In this document: positions 7,819-35,580 of the stretch, piece after piece | Layout of the letters: each line of letters starts with the position of its first letter | Numbering within the stretch: position 1 is the stretch's first letter | Origin: Pontibacterium granulatum | GTDB taxonomy: Bacteria; Pseudomonadota; Gammaproteobacteria; Pseudomonadales; Balneatricaceae | Assembly (NCBI RefSeq): GCF_029961155.1 | Contig: NZ_JASBRH010000034.1 | Coordinates: 1 to 35,781, forward strand | DNA length: 35,781 nt | Direction: 5' to 3' | Made by a program: the position numbers and the translations under genes | Notes under the pieces: model-generated | Seen by the model: the letters and a program-made list of their open reading frames with translations, nothing else | Told to the model about the DNA's origin: nothing | Databases searched by the model: none

Positions 7819-7902
7819 CCTCTCTCGATACCGCAAAACCCGAGTAATCGGGTGACGCAAAGTCACGGGTCCCACTGGGATAGCCGGACCACCGAAGGAG
7901 AG
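7819..7902 (+). ncRNA. c-di-GMP-I (GEMM-I) riboswitch aptamer
   Basis: The stretch has the main parts of a class-I cyclic-di-GMP riboswitch. P1 pairs CTCTC near 7821 with GAGAG near 7898. P2 is ACCCGA/TCGGGT (7838-7853) capped by GTAA, a GNRA tetraloop as in known members. The conserved joining strand follows as GACGCAAAGTC (7854-7864), and the P3 arm runs from ACGGGTCCC to GATAGCCGGACCACCG. An outer helix may add AGATC/CC upstream and GGATCT at 7926-7931. The ATG of the small secreted protein lies 55 bases after the aptamer, with a GCGGAGG ribosome-binding site and no terminator between, so translational control is more likely than attenuation. Confidence 0.9.
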
Positions 7903-7957
7903 CCCACCCTATGGACAGTTTCTGAGGATCTTTTGCTGATGTATCGCGGAGGTCAAC

Positions 7958-8245
7958 ATGAAACGGTCATCCTGCATGGTCCCAATTCTCGCCTGTGCTG
8001 TTGCGCTCGCTGTCCCTCAAGAGGTTGCTGCATCTGACTTGGACGACTCAGCTGTTCTGGCTACTTACCACTACTCGGTGCTGCATGAACATTACCCGGT
8101 GGTGTCACTGGCGCCGGAGCCGATTGAACAGGCGGTTCAAGCCCTGGATGAAAAGCGAAATAAAGCGGCAGAGGCCAAGAAACAGAGTAAAAAAAATCTG
8201 CGCAGTTTCTACATGAAGCTGCTGGCAGTGGTGAGTGCCCGGTAA
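7958..8245 (+). CDS. Small secreted protein under c-di-GMP riboswitch control
   Basis: A 95-residue protein of unknown function. It starts with a signal-peptide-like stretch (MKRSSCMVPILACAVALAVP, then QEVAAS), followed by a short acidic part, a charged helix rich in Lys, Glu and Ala (about residues 60-80, QALDEKRNKAAEAKKQSKKN), and an amphipathic end LRSFYMKLLAVVSAR. The start at 7958 has a strong GGAGG 4 bases upstream. The mRNA leader is a c-di-GMP-I riboswitch, so output should depend on c-di-GMP level. The end resembles that of the protein at 21104 (RRLYLKLLLMKG), suggesting a small family. A hairpin follows directly. A secreted matrix- or adhesion-related peptide is one idea; nothing shows it. 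Confidence 0.72.
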   Translation: MKRSSCMVPILACAVALAVPQEVAASDLDDSAVLATYHYSVLHEHYPVVSLAPEPIEQAVQALDEKRNKAAEAKKQSKKNLRSFYMKLLAVVSAR

Positions 8246-27756: not shown

Positions 27757-28575
27757 TTATCGTGTTGTACGCCAGAATGGGCGATTATTGTAGGAGAGAA
27801 TCACCCCGTCCTTGGTGATCTGTTTTAGTTTTAGTGCGCTGCTGATCTGATCCCCCTCCCGCAGTCTCATGCCGTTAATTTTAACCAGACGTGATGCGGG
27901 TTTTGGGGAATAGATATGCACCGTAAAGTTAAGTTCAGGCAATGCCCGCTGGACCTGCAGCGGTAGCTGTTTTTGATGTGGAATCCCTGCATATGGATCG
28001 GGTTCTGCCGGTGTTTGGGGTTTAGGCACTGCCTTAGGCTTGGTGAAGGCTACGGTTGCCGGTTCCGGTGAAGCTGGTTTTGAAATGTGTGGTGTAGGCT
28101 TTGTCGGTTTTGGTGTGCTGACTATAGCTTGCTGCTTCAAGTTATCCGCATACCGTGTACTTGCAACAGAAAGGTCGTTTTGGCGTGCCTGAGTGGTGTT
28201 GATACGCACGTTCTCCACCTCTTCCAAAGCGTCAGCTGAAAGCAGCCACTCGTCGTTGCGTAAAGGTGGATCGGTCGCCTGAATAGGCAAAGGCACCTGG
28301 ACTTTTTTTTCCGGCATGTAGGATATAGAAGGAATGGCTTCAGCCTGTGGTGCCTGAAAAGGCGTTTGGACGGGGTTTGTCGTACCATCCAGGATGGATT
28401 TTCCCGCGACAAGCACGATAGCAATTGCCAGAAACACGACGCCGGCCCACATATAAGGGATCGGCTTTCCACTGGATGTTTCCACTAGCTGGAGCGTCTG
28501 GGTCTGTATGTCAGGAACCTTCCCCCTGTTGCGATCGCGGTCAGAATGTTTGAGGGCGTCGAGAATATATGACAT
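27757..28575 (-). CDS. gspB: GspB-like type II secretion assembly protein
   Basis: A 272-residue protein with the GspB N-terminal signature MSYILDALKHSDRDRNRG, a membrane helix near residues 41-58 (YMWAGVVFLAIAIVLVAG), a long Pro/Lys-rich periplasmic linker, and the C-terminal T2SSB domain (about 210-272: LPELNFTVHIYSPKPASRLVKINGMRLREGDQ). GspB works with GspA to place the type II secretin (GspD) in the outer membrane through the peptidoglycan. The ATG is one base after the gspA stop with a GGGGAGG ribosome-binding site, so the two are coupled. No core T2SS genes are in the window. Confidence 0.92.
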   Translation of the reverse strand: MSYILDALKHSDRDRNRGKVPDIQTQTLQLVETSSGKPIPYMWAGVVFLAIAIVLVAGKSILDGTTNPVQTPFQAPQAEAIPSISYMPEKKVQVPLPIQATDPPLRNDEWLLSADALEEVENVRINTTQARQNDLSVASTRYADNLKQQAIVSTPKPTKPTPHISKPASPEPATVAFTKPKAVPKPQTPAEPDPYAGIPHQKQLPLQVQRALPELNFTVHIYSPKPASRLVKINGMRLREGDQISSALKLKQITKDGVILSYNNRPFWRTTR

Positions 28576-28576
28576 G

Positions 28577-30256
28577 TCACGCCTCCCCTTGATCAGCTTT
28601 CAGCATAGGGGTGTCGTTCTCACTCACCGAATTGAGCAGGATTGCGGTATGAGGGCCGACTACGCCGTCGGGGACGAGCCCGTTGCTGGCCTGGAAGCGT
28701 TTCACTTGTCGTACTAAACCACCGTCATAGGTTTGCAGCCTGAAATAACGCGGCGCCCTGCTCTGGGATAAGGCCAACTGACGATCCAGCCAAATGACCT
28801 CAGGACCTTCCATGCCGGGCTGAATTGGCGCCTTATAGTGCTCCGGCACTCGCCACATCACGGTGTATTTGCCAACGACCCATAACTTCAGGTCCTCTAC
28901 TGTAACCCGGCGTACTTCCCCTCCTATAGCGACTTCTGCAATTCCATCTTTTACGGCGAGTAATGTGCCAAAGAAGTTCTGCCCTTTAGCGTTGAATAAT
29001 TTCAGTACCGCTGGCCGATTCAGGTTTATCAGTTCATCCAGGCTACCGATGTTGAATAAGCAGCGCAGCCCATTGGATTCCGCAAAACGACATACGGCAG
29101 GTTGCTTTCTGGGCTCGTAGGTTAGGTTCCACTGTTGCATCAGTACTTTATAGGCCTGCACTTCCGTCCGTGATGTATCGGTACCTGTGGGCCACTGCCA
29201 GTTGGCAGGGTTTGAAAGTTCCTGCCCACTGCTGATCGTGCCAGGCCCATCTGACTTAGTGATGGCGGAAATCGTTTTTTCACCCTGCTCTATCACCTGT
29301 GATGTAACCGATTGAGCTGACTGCATTATGCTTTGTTCGGGATTGTGGGTGTACAGCACATAACCCAGCGCCGCAGATGCAAACAAACAGGCCGCGATTG
29401 CAAGTGACATCACACCCCGTTTTTCAGTTCTTTCTGATATTGCCGGTGACGAGTCACCAAATACCTCATTGGCCGCCTTGCCAAGCGTTTTTTCCTCAAC
29501 CCGATTTTCCCGCTGCACGTATGCGCCGAGCAGTGCCCGGTCGCAGATGATGTTTACTAAGCGCGGAATACCTTTGGTGAGTCTATATAAGCGTTTAATC
29601 GACGATGGCGGGAACAGCTGACCGTCGACACCTGCAACAGATAAACGGTGGGCAACGTATGCGGGCAGCTCTTCCCTGGATAGCGCACGCAGGTGGTAAC
29701 GTGCGGTGATGCGCTGATTTACCTGGCGAAGTTCAGGTTGAGATAGTTTGTCGGTTAACTCGGGTTGGCCAATCAGGATGATCTGCAGCAGTTTTTGGGT
29801 GTTGGTTTCGAGGTTTGTCAGCAACCGAATGGTTTCGAGCACATCGGCGGACAGATTCTGAGCTTCATCAATTATGAGTACTGTATGCCTGTCGTTACGG
29901 TGGTTATCCAGCAGATGTTCGTTGATTGCGTCGACGTAGTCCTTGAGTTCACCCTCTTTTCGACACTCAATGCTCAGTTCGTCGCAGATCGCTTCCAGCA
30001 GTTCGATTGCCGTGTACTGGGGGTTAACAATAAATGCGATCTCGGTATTTTCCGGCAGTTGCTCCAGAAGGCAGCGTGAGACAGTGGTTTTCCCGGTACC
30101 GACCTCGCCCGTCAGCAGCACAAATCCGCCATTACTGTTTATACCGTAAAGCAAATGAGCCAGCGCTTCGCGGTGTTGTTCACTCATGTAAAGGAAGCGC
30201 GGATCGGGCGCGATCGCGAAAGGAGGTTCGGATAATCCAAAGTAGTTGCTATACAT
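28577..30256 (-). CDS. gspA: GspA/ExeA-like ATPase with peptidoglycan-binding domain
   Basis: A 559-residue protein. The N-terminal AAA ATPase domain begins MYSNYFGLSEPPFAIAPDPR, typical of ExeA, with Walker A TGEVGTGKTT (residues 49-58) and Walker B VLIIDEAQNL near 127. A membrane helix follows at about 283-303 (SLAIAACLFASAALGYVLY), then a periplasmic part with a C39-peptidase-like/linker region and a C-terminal peptidoglycan-binding domain (about 490-545, VKRFQASNGLVPDGVVGP). With GspB it remodels or binds the cell wall so the type II secretin can be assembled. It starts about 260 bases from the divergent VpsR-like gene, sharing its promoter region. Confidence 0.94.
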   Translation of the reverse strand: MYSNYFGLSEPPFAIAPDPRFLYMSEQHREALAHLLYGINSNGGFVLLTGEVGTGKTTVSRCLLEQLPENTEIAFIVNPQYTAIELLEAICDELSIECRKEGELKDYVDAINEHLLDNHRNDRHTVLIIDEAQNLSADVLETIRLLTNLETNTQKLLQIILIGQPELTDKLSQPELRQVNQRITARYHLRALSREELPAYVAHRLSVAGVDGQLFPPSSIKRLYRLTKGIPRLVNIICDRALLGAYVQRENRVEEKTLGKAANEVFGDSSPAISERTEKRGVMSLAIAACLFASAALGYVLYTHNPEQSIMQSAQSVTSQVIEQGEKTISAITKSDGPGTISSGQELSNPANWQWPTGTDTSRTEVQAYKVLMQQWNLTYEPRKQPAVCRFAESNGLRCLFNIGSLDELINLNRPAVLKLFNAKGQNFFGTLLAVKDGIAEVAIGGEVRRVTVEDLKLWVVGKYTVMWRVPEHYKAPIQPGMEGPEVIWLDRQLALSQSRAPRYFRLQTYDGGLVRQVKRFQASNGLVPDGVVGPHTAILLNSVSENDTPMLKADQGEA

Positions 30257-30516
30257 GGCAAGTACCCCTTGGTTACAGATACAAATATAGATCTGACCTG
30301 GAATAAATGCGCGATTTTTGTACAGCCATTCTTACATTCGTTTGAGCTAAGCGTTCACGTTAATGACATATTTAGATTCGATGTAACGCAAGTTTAATAG
30401 CAGTGTATTGCAAGGTTTTCACTTCAGTGCGTGTGATCGGTGTCTACACTTAAGTTACATATTGGTTGGGTAATGTTTGTACACCTGTTCACAAACAACA
30501 ATATAAGGCCTCAGCT
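30257..30516. promoter_or_regulatory. Shared promoter region gspAB / VpsR-like gene
   Basis: An A/T-rich divergent promoter region with several TTACA/TGTAA words (near 30332, 30380 and 30450-30462), which are also found upstream of other genes in the right half of the window. No clear -24/-12 sigma-54 promoter was recognised. Confidence 0.45.
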
Positions 30517-31908
30517 ATGAACCCGGTTTCACAACTAGCGCAGCGGGATGATGGAGGGATTCGTAAAGCGCTGTACTTGGACATGGCGGAGTACCATCCA
30601 AGCAACATTGACAGTTTTCATTTCGACGATTGGGCGCTTGATCGGGTGACAACGTCCCCCCGTGCAAAAGCGTGTATTCACGATTATCAGTATCTGGTGG
30701 GGATTGTATATCTCAGCCACCTGAATGACCTGCAACGCCAGCAGGTTATGGACATTGTGAGTCGAGAATATAACACCATCTGGATCGCCCTCATTGAACA
30801 CAATGACCTGCTTGATGCGAACTTCCAACATCTGATCTGCGCGAATTTCCACGACTACTTTACACTTCCGCTCGACAACAACCTTAACTATCTGAAAGCG
30901 GCGCTTGGTCACGCTTATGGGATTGCCCTTCTGCGCTCACTGGAGAGCCAGGGCGCAAATGAATATGATCAAACCGAGATGGTCGGTTCCAGTGAACCGA
31001 TGCGCAGAGTCTTCAGCGAGATACGCAAAGTCGCAAATGTAGACGCCCCGGTCATGATTGGTGGTGACACCGGTACCGGTAAAGAGATGGTTGCCCGCGC
31101 GATACACCAGCGTTCAGCGAGGCATGATGGACCGTTTATTGCCGTAAACTGCGGCGCTTTGCCGGACACCCTTATTCATGCAGAGTTGTTTGGGCATGAA
31201 AAAGGCGCCTTTACCGGTGCCTATAAACGCAAGATTGGTCGTATTGAAGCGGCACAGAATGGCACAATCTTTTTGGATGAGATTGGCGATTTGCCCCTGG
31301 AGCTTCAGGTATACCTGCTTCGTTTTTTGGAAGAGCGAACGATCGAACGTCTGGGAGGTAATGAAAGCTTGCGCGTTAATGCGCGTGTCATCGCCGCCAC
31401 CCACGTTGACCTGGAAAAGGCGGTCGAAGAGGGTCGATTCCGTGAAGATCTTTACTACCGGCTGAATGTGCTCAATATTCAGATGCCAACCCTGGCCGAA
31501 CGGTACGAAGATATTGAGCTGCTGGCCCGATACTTCCTGCGCAAGTTCTCACAGGAATATGATACCCGCGTTCAAGGCTTCTCTAACCACGCCGTTGAAG
31601 CGATGAACAAACACCACTGGCCGGGCAATATACGCGAGATGATAAATCGGATCAGGCGGGCCTTGGTGATGGGTGAAAATCGGTTGATTACTCCAAGTGA
31701 CCTGGGTCTCACTCAAGCGCCGGTCTCTTTACAGGTCATGTCCCTCGACGAAGCGCGCAACCATGCTGAAGAGATGGCCGTAAAGAGTGGATTGCACTAC
31801 TCCCACCACAACATTACCAAAACTGCAAAAATCCTGGGCGTGTCACGTGTGACTCTTTATCGCCTGATCGACAAGTACGGTTTGAGGAAGGATGTTTCAG
31901 TGCCTTAA
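30517..31908 (+). CDS. VpsR-like sigma-54-family transcription activator
   Basis: A 463-residue regulator with an N-terminal receiver-like domain of the VpsR type (about 15-140; IWIALIEHNDLLDANFQHLI and FHDYFTLPLDNNLNYLKAAL), a central AAA+ domain with Walker A GDTGTGKE near 190, the GAFTGA loop (EKGAFTGAYKR) and Walker B GTIFLDEIGDL, and a C-terminal Fis-type helix-turn-helix (KTAKILGVSRVTLYRLIDKYG). In Vibrio cholerae VpsR binds c-di-GMP and activates biofilm genes. Here the receiver lacks an Asp at the usual phosphoacceptor strand (VGIVYLSHL), pointing to phosphorylation-independent control. ATG 30517 has AAGGC upstream; the TTG 17 codons earlier was rejected. Divergent from gspA. Confidence 0.88.
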   Translation: MNPVSQLAQRDDGGIRKALYLDMAEYHPSNIDSFHFDDWALDRVTTSPRAKACIHDYQYLVGIVYLSHLNDLQRQQVMDIVSREYNTIWIALIEHNDLLDANFQHLICANFHDYFTLPLDNNLNYLKAALGHAYGIALLRSLESQGANEYDQTEMVGSSEPMRRVFSEIRKVANVDAPVMIGGDTGTGKEMVARAIHQRSARHDGPFIAVNCGALPDTLIHAELFGHEKGAFTGAYKRKIGRIEAAQNGTIFLDEIGDLPLELQVYLLRFLEERTIERLGGNESLRVNARVIAATHVDLEKAVEEGRFREDLYYRLNVLNIQMPTLAERYEDIELLARYFLRKFSQEYDTRVQGFSNHAVEAMNKHHWPGNIREMINRIRRALVMGENRLITPSDLGLTQAPVSLQVMSLDEARNHAEEMAVKSGLHYSHHNITKTAKILGVSRVTLYRLIDKYGLRKDVSVP

Positions 31909-32284: not shown

Positions 32285-32756
32285 TAGATTGAACAGTAAC
32301 AACCGTCCCATGTTCATCGATATTCCAAAAAGTTCCTGAACGAACGATCACTTTTTATTCAGTCAAACGCATGTTTTATTCCACAACTGTATAAGACATG
32401 ATCAGCTGTAAATGTTAGGATGCACCCCGTTAATTTAGTTTACAGCGTGTAAAGCGAACGAACCGAAGGTTGCGGTGAGAGTTGGCGATACATTGCGGGG
32501 AACAGCTGAATGTCCGTCGCGCCGGGTTTGGGTAGGGAAATCCGGCACAGACAGACTCGCTTCATGCGTCCATTTGTTCTCGCACGTGTATCAATCACCT
32601 CCCCTTATTCTTTCGCTTTACCACCCGACTGGCTGAACGCATCCACTTTGGACAGGGAAGGTCAACGGGCACATTGATGTGATTGGATAACGGTCTCACT
32701 GACGAGAGTCGGCCAACAGGGTCTGTTCGCGGGAAAACAGTACCGCGTAAAGAATT
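32285..32756. other. Long leader/intergenic stretch before the protease riboswitch
   Basis: No supported coding region. It holds the TTTACA palindrome (32439-32453) and an imperfect stem at about 32522-32546 (GCCGG/CCGGC with inner TTT/AAA). The promoter of the protease transcript should lie here; no single clear -35/-10 pair stood out. Confidence 0.4.
32439..32453. promoter_or_regulatory. Perfect palindrome TTTACA-GCG-TGTAAA
   Basis: Both 6-bp arms match fully. Another TGTAAA occurs 32 bases upstream (GCTGTAAA near 32405). It may be an operator for the protease transcript; see related sites at 21487 and 27697. Confidence 0.4.
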
Positions 32757-32898
32757 GAAAGATCCTCTCCGGATAAAGGCACAACCTGAGTAATCAGGCG
32801 TCGCAAAGTCACGGGTCCCATCTATGTTGTGGGGATGGCCGAACTGCCCATGGAGAGTAAACCCTCGCGCGTCAGTACGCAGCTGTTGAGGATCTTTC
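32757..32898 (+). ncRNA. c-di-GMP-I (GEMM-I) riboswitch with long outer helix
   Basis: The aptamer core is 32766-32856: P1 TCTCC/GGAGA; P2 CCTGA/TCAGG with a GTAA tetraloop (32785-32798); the conserved strand TCGCAAAGTC (32801-32810); and the P3 arm from ACGGGTCCC to GGGATGGCCGAACTGCCC. Outside it, GAAAGATCC (32757-32765) pairs perfectly with GGATCTTTC (32890-32898), enclosing the aptamer and a small side hairpin. The ribosome-binding site GCGGAG (32912-32917) is complementary to the 5' P1 strand TCTCCG (32766-32771 region), so P1 and the ribosome site can compete. No terminator is present before the ATG at 32924. Confidence 0.9.
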
Positions 32899-32923
32899 GC
32901 GAACCCAATTTGCGGAGATTCTC

Positions 32924-35521
32924 ATGACGCTCAAGGCGCCAAAACCTACATATCTGATTGCTTCCATGGGCATTGCATCTGCCCTGCTGTTGACTCCGGG
33001 CTATGCGGTATCTGCCCCTTATCACGACAACGCTGCGCCTCAGGCATATTCCGTAACGAGCACACAGCGTGCAAACGCTGAAGCTGCGACCCAGGATCTT
33101 ATTACCGAACATCGTCTGTGGGTTCAGTCCCGCGGTAACGGTAAAAAGCTGGGTGTAGCCAAGCTGATCGAAAAAGCGCAGGCCCGTCAGCAGTTGCTGA
33201 CCGAGCTGGCAGAAACAGATCCGGCTGAAGTACTACGTATCGCTATTCCTGCAGACGTTGCGCAGGATATGCCCGCCGAAGTTCAGGAACTGATCGAACA
33301 ACATATCGACCTGGATGGAGAGTTGGAAGTGTCTTACCGGGACGATTTCACCAATCCTGAAAACTCTCGCTTGGTTCACGAGCTGAAAACCAACAACGGC
33401 AAGCGCGTAAAACTGCACATTGCAGGTGACAAAGGTAAGCTGTTCACCGGTAGTCATGTCAACGCCAAAGGCGTTGTCTTTACCAACACCGATGGCGAAG
33501 AAAGCCTGGTTGTAAACGGCGATGACGACGGCATCCTGATGCTGGCAGCCGGTGGCGACGCAACTGGTGGCAGCAATGGTGGTACACCAGTCTCCCCATA
33601 CAATACTACTGGTCAGCAGGACACACTGGTGCTGCTGGTTAACTTTCAGGACAACACTGCGCAGCCGTTTTCCACCAGCCAGGTAAACAACGCCGTATTT
33701 GGCGAAGTTAACAGCTACTTCAACGAAAACTCTTACGGTCAGACTACGCTGGCAGGTACCACCAAGGGTTGGTACACACTGCCTCTGAGCAGCTCTACCT
33801 GTAACAACCGTGACATCGCGACAGCTGCTAAACAGGCGGCAACCAACGCAGGTGTGAACGTATCTGCATACAATCGTTTTTTGTATATCTTGCCGCAGAC
33901 CAGTGCATGCAGCTGGTCCGGTACTGCATTGGTTGGTGGTTCTGAAGCCTGGATTAACGGCACCATCGACATGGACGTAATCGCGCACGAAATGGGCCAC
34001 AACTTCGGTTTGCACCACTCCCACTCCCTGTCTTGTAACGGTGAGACGATCGGCGCAAGCTGTCAGCACTTGGAATACGGTGATGGCGTGGATGTAATGG
34101 GTTGGGCCTCTTCAAGCCACTTCGCACCGTTCCCTAAGGAATACCTGGGCTGGTTGAACCAGAGCAACACGCCGGGTATCCAGCTCATTACTAGCGACGG
34201 TACCTACGAGATCGAGCCTTATGCGTCTCAGACAAACGGCACCAAGGCACTGAAAGTGCAGAAAGGTTTCGACCAGTGGGGCCATCCTGAGTACTACTAC
34301 GTCGAGTACCGCCAGCCTGTAGGTTTCGATGCGACGCTGACCAGCGGTGACCAGAACAACGTGATGAACGGTGTTGTGATCCGTACCGGTGTACCTGAAG
34401 AGAGCAGCAACACCAGTTTCCTGCTGGATATGACGCCTGAAACGTACGACCTGTACACCCGTGATCCGGCGCTGACCTTCGGTCGCAGCTACACCGATTC
34501 TGCAGCAGGTGTAACCATCACTGCCGTTTCCGGTGACCAGAACCGTGCTGTAATAACCGTATCTATGGGTACACAGAGTTGTGTACGTAGCAACCCAACT
34601 CTGACGTTCTCCCCTGCTCAGGGTCCTTGGGTTGCTGCGGGCACCGCAGTGAACTACAACGTAACCGTAACCAACAATGACGGTGCGGCGTGTTCAAACA
34701 ACAGCTTTAACCTGTCTGCTAATGTGCAGTCCGGTTGGAGTGCGTCTTTCAACGCGAACAGCGTATCGCTGGCACCAGGTCAGAGTGCGACTACTGTATT
34801 GACCGTAAACTCCGCAAGTCCGGCAGCTGACGGTTTCTACGATATCGCCGTTACCGCCGCAAGTGGCAGTTACAGCAAAACTGGCAACGTGACCTACGTG
34901 GTTGATAACCCGGCATCTGACACGAACACTGCACCGGTTGCACAGAGTGACTCCGCAGCGACAACTAGCGGTAGCTCTGTTGTGATTCCGGTATTGAACA
35001 ACGACAACGATGCTGACGGCGATGCACTGACTATCACCTCTGTAAGCGGGGTGTACGGTAGTGCTGTGATCAACAGCAACGGTACTATCACTTTTACACC
35101 GGCTGCTGGTTATGCGGGCACTGAAGTATTCAGCTACAGCGTATCTGACGGTAACGGTGGTTCCGATAGCGCAAACGTAAGCGTCTCTGTAGCGGCGGTG
35201 AATAATAACTCTGCGCCTGTTGCGGTCAACGATAGCGTAACTCTGTCTAGCAAAACTGCAGTGACTATCTCCGTACTGAGCAACGACTACGATCCGGAAA
35301 ACGATGCGCTGAGCATTGTGGGTGTAACCCAGGGTAGTAAAGGTTCCGTGAGCGTCAACAGCAACGGTACGATCTACTACTCTCCGTCGAAGAGCTTCAA
35401 GAGCAGCGATAGCTTCACCTACACCATCAGTGATGGCCAGAAGACATCGACTGCGACCGTATCCATCAGCTTGTCTGGTAGCACGGGTGGTAACGGAAAA
35501 GGTAATGGTAAAAACCGTTAA
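32924..35521 (+). CDS. Secreted zinc metalloprotease (gametolysin/M6-M11-like) with NEW3 and cadherin-like repeats
   Basis: An 865-residue secreted protein. Residues 1-31 form a signal peptide (LIASMGIASALLLTPGYAVSA). A propeptide-like part (about 35-215) follows. The protease domain (about 230-540) contains HEMGHNFGLHH, the HExxHxxGxxH zinc motif with His355, Glu356, His359 and His365, and DVMGWASS as a likely Met-turn. Then come a NEW3-like Ig domain (about 550-640), two cadherin-like/Big_9 repeats (about 660-750 and 755-850; DADGDALTI and DPENDALSI) and a basic Gly/Asn/Lys tail. Export is likely by type II secretion, which fits gspAB nearby. A c-di-GMP-I riboswitch leads the message. Substrate is unknown; matrix or adhesin processing is a fair guess. 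Confidence 0.92.
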   Translation: MTLKAPKPTYLIASMGIASALLLTPGYAVSAPYHDNAAPQAYSVTSTQRANAEAATQDLITEHRLWVQSRGNGKKLGVAKLIEKAQARQQLLTELAETDPAEVLRIAIPADVAQDMPAEVQELIEQHIDLDGELEVSYRDDFTNPENSRLVHELKTNNGKRVKLHIAGDKGKLFTGSHVNAKGVVFTNTDGEESLVVNGDDDGILMLAAGGDATGGSNGGTPVSPYNTTGQQDTLVLLVNFQDNTAQPFSTSQVNNAVFGEVNSYFNENSYGQTTLAGTTKGWYTLPLSSSTCNNRDIATAAKQAATNAGVNVSAYNRFLYILPQTSACSWSGTALVGGSEAWINGTIDMDVIAHEMGHNFGLHHSHSLSCNGETIGASCQHLEYGDGVDVMGWASSSHFAPFPKEYLGWLNQSNTPGIQLITSDGTYEIEPYASQTNGTKALKVQKGFDQWGHPEYYYVEYRQPVGFDATLTSGDQNNVMNGVVIRTGVPEESSNTSFLLDMTPETYDLYTRDPALTFGRSYTDSAAGVTITAVSGDQNRAVITVSMGTQSCVRSNPTLTFSPAQGPWVAAGTAVNYNVTVTNNDGAACSNNSFNLSANVQSGWSASFNANSVSLAPGQSATTVLTVNSASPAADGFYDIAVTAASGSYSKTGNVTYVVDNPASDTNTAPVAQSDSAATTSGSSVVIPVLNNDNDADGDALTITSVSGVYGSAVINSNGTITFTPAAGYAGTEVFSYSVSDGNGGSDSANVSVSVAAVNNNSAPVAVNDSVTLSSKTAVTISVLSNDYDPENDALSIVGVTQGSKGSVSVNSNGTIYYSPSKSFKSSDSFTYTISDGQKTSTATVSISLSGSTGGNGKGNGKNR

Positions 35522-35547: not shown

Positions 35548-35580
35548 AAAGGGCGATTCCTGTAAGGGAACCGCCCTTTT
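35548..35580 (+). terminator. Terminator of the metalloprotease gene
   Basis: AAAGGGCG and CGCCCTTTT form the stem, with inner TTCC/GGAA pairing and a TGTAA loop, followed by a T-rich run. It lies 27 bases after the stop. Confidence 0.9.

Follow-up and report, generated by a model that had tools for sequence, protein, structure and literature searches.

A c-di-GMP-I riboswitch predicted to repress translation of an exported metalloprotease in Pontibacterium granulatum and its family

In a stretch of 35,781 nucleotides (nt) from the gammaproteobacterium Pontibacterium granulatum (contig NZ_JASBRH010000034.1; the whole stretch is referred to below as the window), a class I riboswitch aptamer for cyclic di-guanosine monophosphate (c-di-GMP) stands ahead of the gene for a large, apparently exported metalloprotease, and comparative and folding evidence makes it likely that this riboswitch represses translation of the protease. 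The aptamer, of the c-di-GMP-I (GEMM-I) type, was located at 32768-32851 (+) by the covariance model RF01051 with 52.1 bits (E 1.5e-7) against a gathering cut-off of 35 bits, and 72 nt separate its end from the protease start codon (ATG at 32924). The other RF01051 match in the window lies at 7822-7896 (+, 54.9 bits), and the genome carries a third c-di-GMP-I aptamer outside the window. An earlier note, made from the letters alone, had read the element as the second GEMM-I aptamer of this DNA, adjoining an 865-residue secreted HExxHxxGxxH protease with cadherin-like repeats, and had named a search with the GEMM model as a check; that search upholds the aptamer, and the open reading frame (ORF), the motif and the Pfam domains agree on the protease, its secretion signal having been judged by eye. 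Position 32757, where the note let the element begin, is the first base of a strand (A) immediately 5' of the aptamer proper. The leader and the gene that it precedes comprise the following features.

32728..32747, + strand: 5' stem-loop of the leader with CGCGG/CCGCG arms, upstream of the switching strand (folding z against shuffles)
32757..32767, + strand: strand A, GAAAGATCCTC, 5' arm of the anti-sequestor, pairing with C (11 base pairs (bp) in the window; covariation)
32765..32771, + strand: 5' arm of the closing helix P1, CTCTCCG, which shares CTC with strand A (compensatory variants CTCTAC:GTAGAG, CTCTGT:ATAGAG and CTCTCA:TGAGAG)
32768..32851, + strand: c-di-GMP-I (GEMM-I) riboswitch aptamer (equivalents of G20, A47 and C92 present)
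32851..32857, + strand: 3' arm of P1, TGGAGAG, strand B (helix pairing)
32887..32898, + strand: strand C, TGAGGATCTTTC, partner of A (anti-sequestor) or of D (sequestor) (pairing and folding predictions)
32898..32914, + strand: small hairpin CGCGAA-CCCAA-TTTGCG, which extends the C:D stem (folding z of the C-hairpin-D element)
32914..32924, + strand: strand D, GGAGATTCTCA, with the Shine-Dalgarno sequence and the first base of the start codon, covered by C (predicted pairing and opening)
32924..35521, + strand: apparently exported metzincin-type (M11-like) metalloprotease of 865 amino acids (aa), carrying the HExxHxxGxxH motif, two cadherin-like domains and a C-terminal tail rich in Gly and Lys (Pfam, alignment and profile matches)

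Among 116 family genomes, in which the protein search returned 43 places and the aptamer search 111 (the family and class-wide aptamer searches being run with stricter filters), an aptamer on the same strand precedes 40 of the 41 close homologues of the protease (E<1e-40), at a spacing of 67-232 nt to the first matched residue; one of these 40 aptamers, in genome G112, falls just under the cut-off (34.2 bits). The sole close family homologue devoid of an aptamer is that of genome G111 (locus L146), where a search with lax settings was also empty, apparently as a natural loss of the switch. Upstream of this gene strands A and C are absent, and the Shine-Dalgarno stretch TTCAGGAGA, common in many other leaders, is retained. 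Weaker family homologues in G120 (4e-22) and G045 (7e-4) have no aptamer upstream, nor have the two homologues (1.6e-75 and 6e-75) in G065, a member of another family of the same order found in a 96-genome sample of relatives; a repeat search with lax settings yielded no aptamer at the G065, G111 and G120 loci either. A class-wide spread of the enzyme was considered and rejected: among 274 class-wide genomes a close homologue is present in the own genome only and four others hold weak matches (2.5e-5 to 8e-4), despite the presence of c-di-GMP-I aptamers in 49 of them, the own genome included. Given the near-complete linkage within the family, the bare homologues of G065 and a class without further close homologues, we regard the pairing of aptamer and protease as a trait of the family.

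A total of 91 leaders (69 + 22) were processed, and energies and covariation were computed for 54, namely all 40 protease leaders and 14 non-protease leaders selected for similar A and C arms, the remaining 37 being left out. The residues of the Vibrio cholerae Vc2 riboswitch described as touching c-di-GMP are G20, A47 and C92 (PMC4744006), and at these positions, as placed by us on the Rfam model, all 54 leaders, the window among them, read G, A and C; we infer that the window aptamer binds c-di-GMP. A variant aptamer of the c-di-GMP-I-GGC or cyclic GMP-AMP (cGAMP) type, recognizing some other ligand, appears highly improbable. With lax settings the GGC model RF03167 was indeed retained over RF01051 at the window site, at 55.0 bits, and it passes its cut-off in five related leaders (five among 18 matches listed over 10 loci, all five reading CGCAAAG); the window score is, however, below the RF03167 cut-off of 59, and the position of A47 is a G in the GGC consensus but an A in 54/54 leaders, all of which have G at position 20. 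The RF03167/cGAMP candidate was therefore set aside on the A at the A47 position together with the sub-cut-off score of the window.

All 54 leaders follow one layout, in which strand A is followed by the aptamer, strand B, strand C (beginning 22-40 nt past the aptamer in the protease leaders), a short hairpin and strand D with the Shine-Dalgarno sequence, represented in the window by GGAG at 32914-32917. The P1 helix of the window (CUCUCCG:UGGAGAG), which covaries across leaders, has a CUC in common with the A:C helix (GAAAGAUCCUC:GAGGAUCUUUC), and strand C can alternatively form the C:D helix (UGAGGAUCUUU:GGAGAUUCUCA). For both P1 and A:C the own-partner score exceeded those of all 2000 partner shuffles (0/2000 reached it), in the 36 distinct sequences of the 40 protease leaders as well as in the 50 distinct sequences of all 54, in a test whose shuffles ignore sequence relatedness and whose helices were those of best complementarity within a short search interval, a choice favouring discovery. 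Covariation of C:D is weak, its own-partner score being reached by 71/2000 shuffles in the protease leaders and 271/2000 in the full set, and in a number of leaders the best C:D helix has only 4-6 bp. The C-hairpin-D element gives a folding z of -4.03 in the window and a mean of -3.44 over the 40 protease leaders (above -1 in two), and the mean predicted opening of the Shine-Dalgarno site in these leaders is 0.11 with C vs. 0.36 without it; the presence of C lowers the opening by more than 0.05 in 33/40, and from 0.28 to 0.01 in the window.

According to the mechanism that these helices suggest, strand A would pair with C at low c-di-GMP, leaving D with the Shine-Dalgarno sequence open and the protease translated. 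At high c-di-GMP the ligand would stabilize P1, which would take the CUC common to A:C, and the freed C would then pair with D and cover the ribosome site. For transcripts that stop at C, the predictions favour A:C over P1 in 40/40 protease leaders (median 7.4 kcal/mol) and 14/14 others, and P1 would therefore need the help of the ligand. When P1 is forced in the whole leader, P1 with C:D is preferred over P1 with the residual A:C, again in 40/40 (median 6.2 kcal/mol) and 14/14, and in the window forced P1 reduces the predicted opening of the Shine-Dalgarno site from 0.41 to 0.01. The predicted structures are arranged like those of a translational OFF switch, with mutually exclusive anti-sequestor and sequestor and with P1 competing with the anti-sequestor. 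Because A:C beats P1 early and C:D beats the residual A:C once P1 is forced, c-di-GMP most likely turns translation off. The proposal that c-di-GMP decides when the protease is made, which came without a direction, is well supported by the linkage in 40/41 homologues and by the conserved expression platform, and the evidence favours repression.

The opposite direction, an ON switch in which the outer pairs of A:C (AAAGATC:GATCTTT) would persist with ligand-bound P1 stacked on them and keep C off D, so that c-di-GMP activates translation, is improbable in our estimate. It can draw on the small overlap of P1 and A:C, which is only a few nt long and lets 3-9 outer A:C pairs stand alongside P1 in the computed leaders, and on the description of V. 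cholerae Vc1 as an ON switch (PMC4744006), but the arrangement that it postulates, P1 with residual A:C, is the worse one in every one of the 40 protease and 14 other leaders. Moreover, in leaders such as G045:C1:101879 the CUC common to both helices is paired with a GAG in C that D leaves unused, as exclusive helices would predict; strand C differs at this point in G047, G055 and G115.

Action of the riboswitch mainly on transcript stability or on Rho-dependent termination, with Shine-Dalgarno pairing as a secondary effect, likewise seems unlikely. Untranslated leaders are often targets of Rho or RNases, and the switch is preceded by a stem-loop with varying yet complementary arms; how the V. 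cholerae switches act was also described as unclear in 2016 (PMC4744006). Such action would nevertheless leave aside that C:D in the window covers exactly the Shine-Dalgarno sequence and the first base of the start codon; an intrinsic terminator between aptamer and gene was also dropped as a candidate, a simple scan of this interval having found none. The 5' stem-loop may shield the mRNA at its 5' end. In the window 9 nt lie between this stem-loop and A, in some other leaders somewhat more, and the arms of the stem-loop vary by genus and remain complementary. The region containing it has z<-1.5 in 24/40 protease leaders vs. 2/40 for a region farther upstream, and in 6/13 vs. 2/13 non-protease leaders (one of the 14 being too short). 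A repeated operator, CGGGAAAACAGTACCG, was rejected, as its single site in the window at up to 3 mismatches is this same stem-loop.

Several observations weigh against translational repression by c-di-GMP. Along with the construction of the covariation test, the weak C:D signal and the homologues of G111 and G065 that have no aptamer, these include the response to forced P1 in the ViennaRNA predictions, which leave out ligand, tertiary contacts and co-transcription: the opening falls in only 15 of the 40 protease leaders, stays within 0.02 in 21 and rises in four (G024, G048, G112 and G097), the corresponding numbers for the 14 other leaders being three down and none up. At equilibrium A:C is preferred over C:D in only 21/40 protease leaders and 3/14 others; transcription order would have to favour A:C first. 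Nor can the direction be assumed from the riboswitch class, because the two class I switches of V. cholerae are reported to act in opposing directions (PMC6366702) and one class I gene of Clostridioides difficile is reported to be raised by c-di-GMP (PMC6200980).

The protease itself (ORF 32924-35521, ATG start) carries HEMGHNFGLHH at residue 355, a Peptidase_M11 match of 47.6 bits (cut-off 21) and two stretches each of Big_9 and Cadherin_5, together with an apparent Sec signal peptide recognized by eye. Across 39 aligned homologues H355, E356, H359, G362, H365 and M392 are invariant, and 33/39 match Peptidase_M11 at E<=0.001. A profile of the 39 has an RTX protein (5e-10) as its best match, in the repeat region, and, around the zinc site, matches the ADAMTS-5 (2e-4) and adamalysin II (0.003) chains. 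The M11 match, the invariant zinc ligands with the Met, and these two chains identify the enzyme by sequence as metzincin-type. Close relatives, at 80-81% identity, belong to Pontibacterium sinense and an Oceanospirillaceae metagenome-assembled genome. A Gly/Asn/Lys-rich tail (e.g., KGNGKNK, KGKGPNK; window 35480-35521) ends 37/37 complete aptamer-led homologues. The idea that a KGNGK-type tail is common to other proteins of the own genome was discarded, one exact DNA pattern having hit the protease alone, and a search of the own genome for the PF04151 domain gave no match.

As to its role, the protease, probably type II-exported, would act outside the cell as cells are about to leave the surface. 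It is quite possible, however, that the enzyme serves extracellular nutrient scavenging unrelated to the release of adhesins or matrix, with c-di-GMP merely marking the planktonic state. Consistent with scavenging, no protease substrate turned up, in an analysis that included no systematic substrate search, and in several genomes the gene occurs in two or three diverged copies, as is seen with digestive enzymes. On the other hand, the cadherin-like domains and the conserved tail suggest binding of a particular partner.

The neighbourhood of the protease gene includes the following features of the window.

27757..28575, - strand: GspB-like type II secretion assembly factor (T2SSB 74.8 bits, cut-off 28.4; NCBIfam GspB 56 bits, below its cut-off of 100)
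28577..30256, - strand: GspA-like ATPase, conserved divergent neighbour (AAA and PG_binding_1 domains, GspB adjacent)
30466..31908, + strand: VpsR-like sigma-54-type activator with GAFTGA motif, conserved neighbour (VpsR domain 47.8 bits, cut-off 23.7)
35564..35578, + strand: terminator-like hairpin 3' of the protease gene (one such site in the region; shuffles average 3.6)

Conservation was assessed by tblastn of the window proteins on widely fetched loci from 16 protease-bearing genomes (own included) and from G006, which has no protease match; the remaining protease-bearing genomes, fetched with short flanks, stand outside these counts. The VpsR-like gene is present in 17/17 (16/16 protease genomes and G006) and the GspA-like gene diverges from it in 16/17, the G021 stretch (L096) ending before it, while a GspB match was obtained in 11/17 and may elsewhere fall outside the fetched stretch. 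By coordinates, the riboswitch-led gene following the VpsR-like gene is the protease in 13/17; in 4/17 (G021, G045, G035 and G006) a secreted protein of 442-476 aa takes its place. The best NCBIfam match of the GspA-like protein is a PEP-CTERM-associated ATPase, under its cut-off. Together with a GspD, above its cut-off in the genome, the GspA/GspB-like neighbours were counted as support for type II secretion as the probable route of export. GspD and Peptidase_C93 (three matches over cut-off) aside, 75 GGDEF matches indicate that c-di-GMP signalling is rich in this genome. VpsR of V. cholerae is listed among c-di-GMP binders (PMC4624772); the likeness of the neighbour, which has the GAFTGA motif, is a domain match, and its own c-di-GMP binding is putative. 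A sigma-54 promoter for it near the protease was rejected: TGGCAC-N5-TTGCW at <=2 mismatches has 22 sites in the window vs. 23.7 expected.

Aptamers of this class lead several other genes. The first aptamer of the window, with similar A/C arms, leads an exported-looking 95-aa protein (window 7822-8245) that has no Pfam or NCBIfam match at E<=0.001. Proteins of 93-115 aa follow such aptamers in eight other genomes (L081, L090, L095, L103, L104, L106, L159 and L162); most are basic in a C-terminal stretch, several have an FYxxLL-type end, and their mutual similarity is low (17-30% for the three aligned). The riboswitch-led 442-476-aa secreted protein occurs in five genomes (L096:3159-4487, L099, L105, L121 and L149), the L096 copy carrying Dockerin_1 and Big_7 domains, which we judge unusual for a marine gammaproteobacterium. 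In L086, L091, L092, L101 and L109 c-di-GMP-I aptamers precede a similar protein of ~420 aa (with an HDOD domain in L086), and in L119, L120, L123, L125 and L126 weaker aptamers (42-51 bits) directly precede a protein of ~323 aa, presumably of the lysyl-tRNA-synthetase-type EpmA kind. The third aptamer of the own genome (L001 1501-1576, minus strand) is followed by no ORF of >=70 aa that begins in the next 450 nt, and on its other side there is a GGDEF match (G000:C73:54262).

The earlier note had also set the protease apart from the LapD/LapG route. That route responds to low c-di-GMP with proteolysis outside the cytoplasm, and LapG (Peptidase_C93) is a periplasmic cysteine protease under post-translational control, unlike the control at the mRNA level proposed here. 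The genome also has its own three LapG-type matches, of putative function, and the route described here would therefore be additional to a Lap-type route.

The note's direct link between second messenger and protease stands as far as c-di-GMP control is concerned, but is not new in principle, because C. difficile provides a clear precedent: there a class I riboswitch (Cdi-1-12) is reported to precede the secreted metalloprotease ZmpI/PPEP-1 (CD2830), which is lowered by c-di-GMP and releases adhesins by cutting (PMC11477304, PMC6200980), and the seven functional class I switches are described as OFF (PMC6366702). Both systems place a class I switch before a secreted zinc metalloprotease, and the repressive direction in C. 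difficile matches the OFF direction predicted here. They differ in that the C. difficile system, as described, uses transcription termination and a Pro-Pro endopeptidase with known adhesin substrates (PMC6366702, PMC11477304), whereas a translational platform is predicted here, for a large metzincin-like enzyme of a Gram-negative host that is set apart from ZmpI/PPEP-1 by the descriptions of the two enzymes. With the V. cholerae switches Vc1 (gbpA) and Vc2 (tfoY) the window shares the GEMM-I aptamer class, the contact residues and an aquatic gammaproteobacterial host; in contrast to them, a conserved sequestor/anti-sequestor pair is visible here, and neither Vc1 nor Vc2, as described, precedes a protease. 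In the 2016 account neither a terminator nor an anti-Shine-Dalgarno was apparent for Vc1, and the mechanism of Vc2 was unknown at the time (PMC4744006). Titles and abstract openings of the top-ranked openly licensed literature contained no report of a riboswitch-led protease in this bacterial group.

What is new is an enzyme that looks unrelated, a platform that appears translational and a linkage that is near-universal within a Gram-negative family. A broader proposal, which we put forward tentatively and regard as doubtful, is that the VpsR-like activator, GspA/GspB and the c-di-GMP-repressed, type II-secreted metzincin may form one dedicated surface-exit unit kept across this family of marine bacteria, which would read c-di-GMP at both transcription and translation, cut the cell's own matrix or adhesins as c-di-GMP falls, and represent a Gram-negative counterpart, of independent origin, to the C. 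difficile PPEP-1 circuit.

Overall, the leader provides a Gram-negative GEMM-I switch with a readable translational platform kept across genera, whereas the published account of Vc1 and Vc2 left their mechanism unclear (PMC4744006). The protease is probably made only at low c-di-GMP, i.e., in cells that are leaving the surface. If this is true, two distant bacterial groups would respond to low c-di-GMP by producing a secreted protease, through differing RNA mechanisms and with apparently different enzymes, which would argue that the release of a protease on exit from the surface is a repeated solution.

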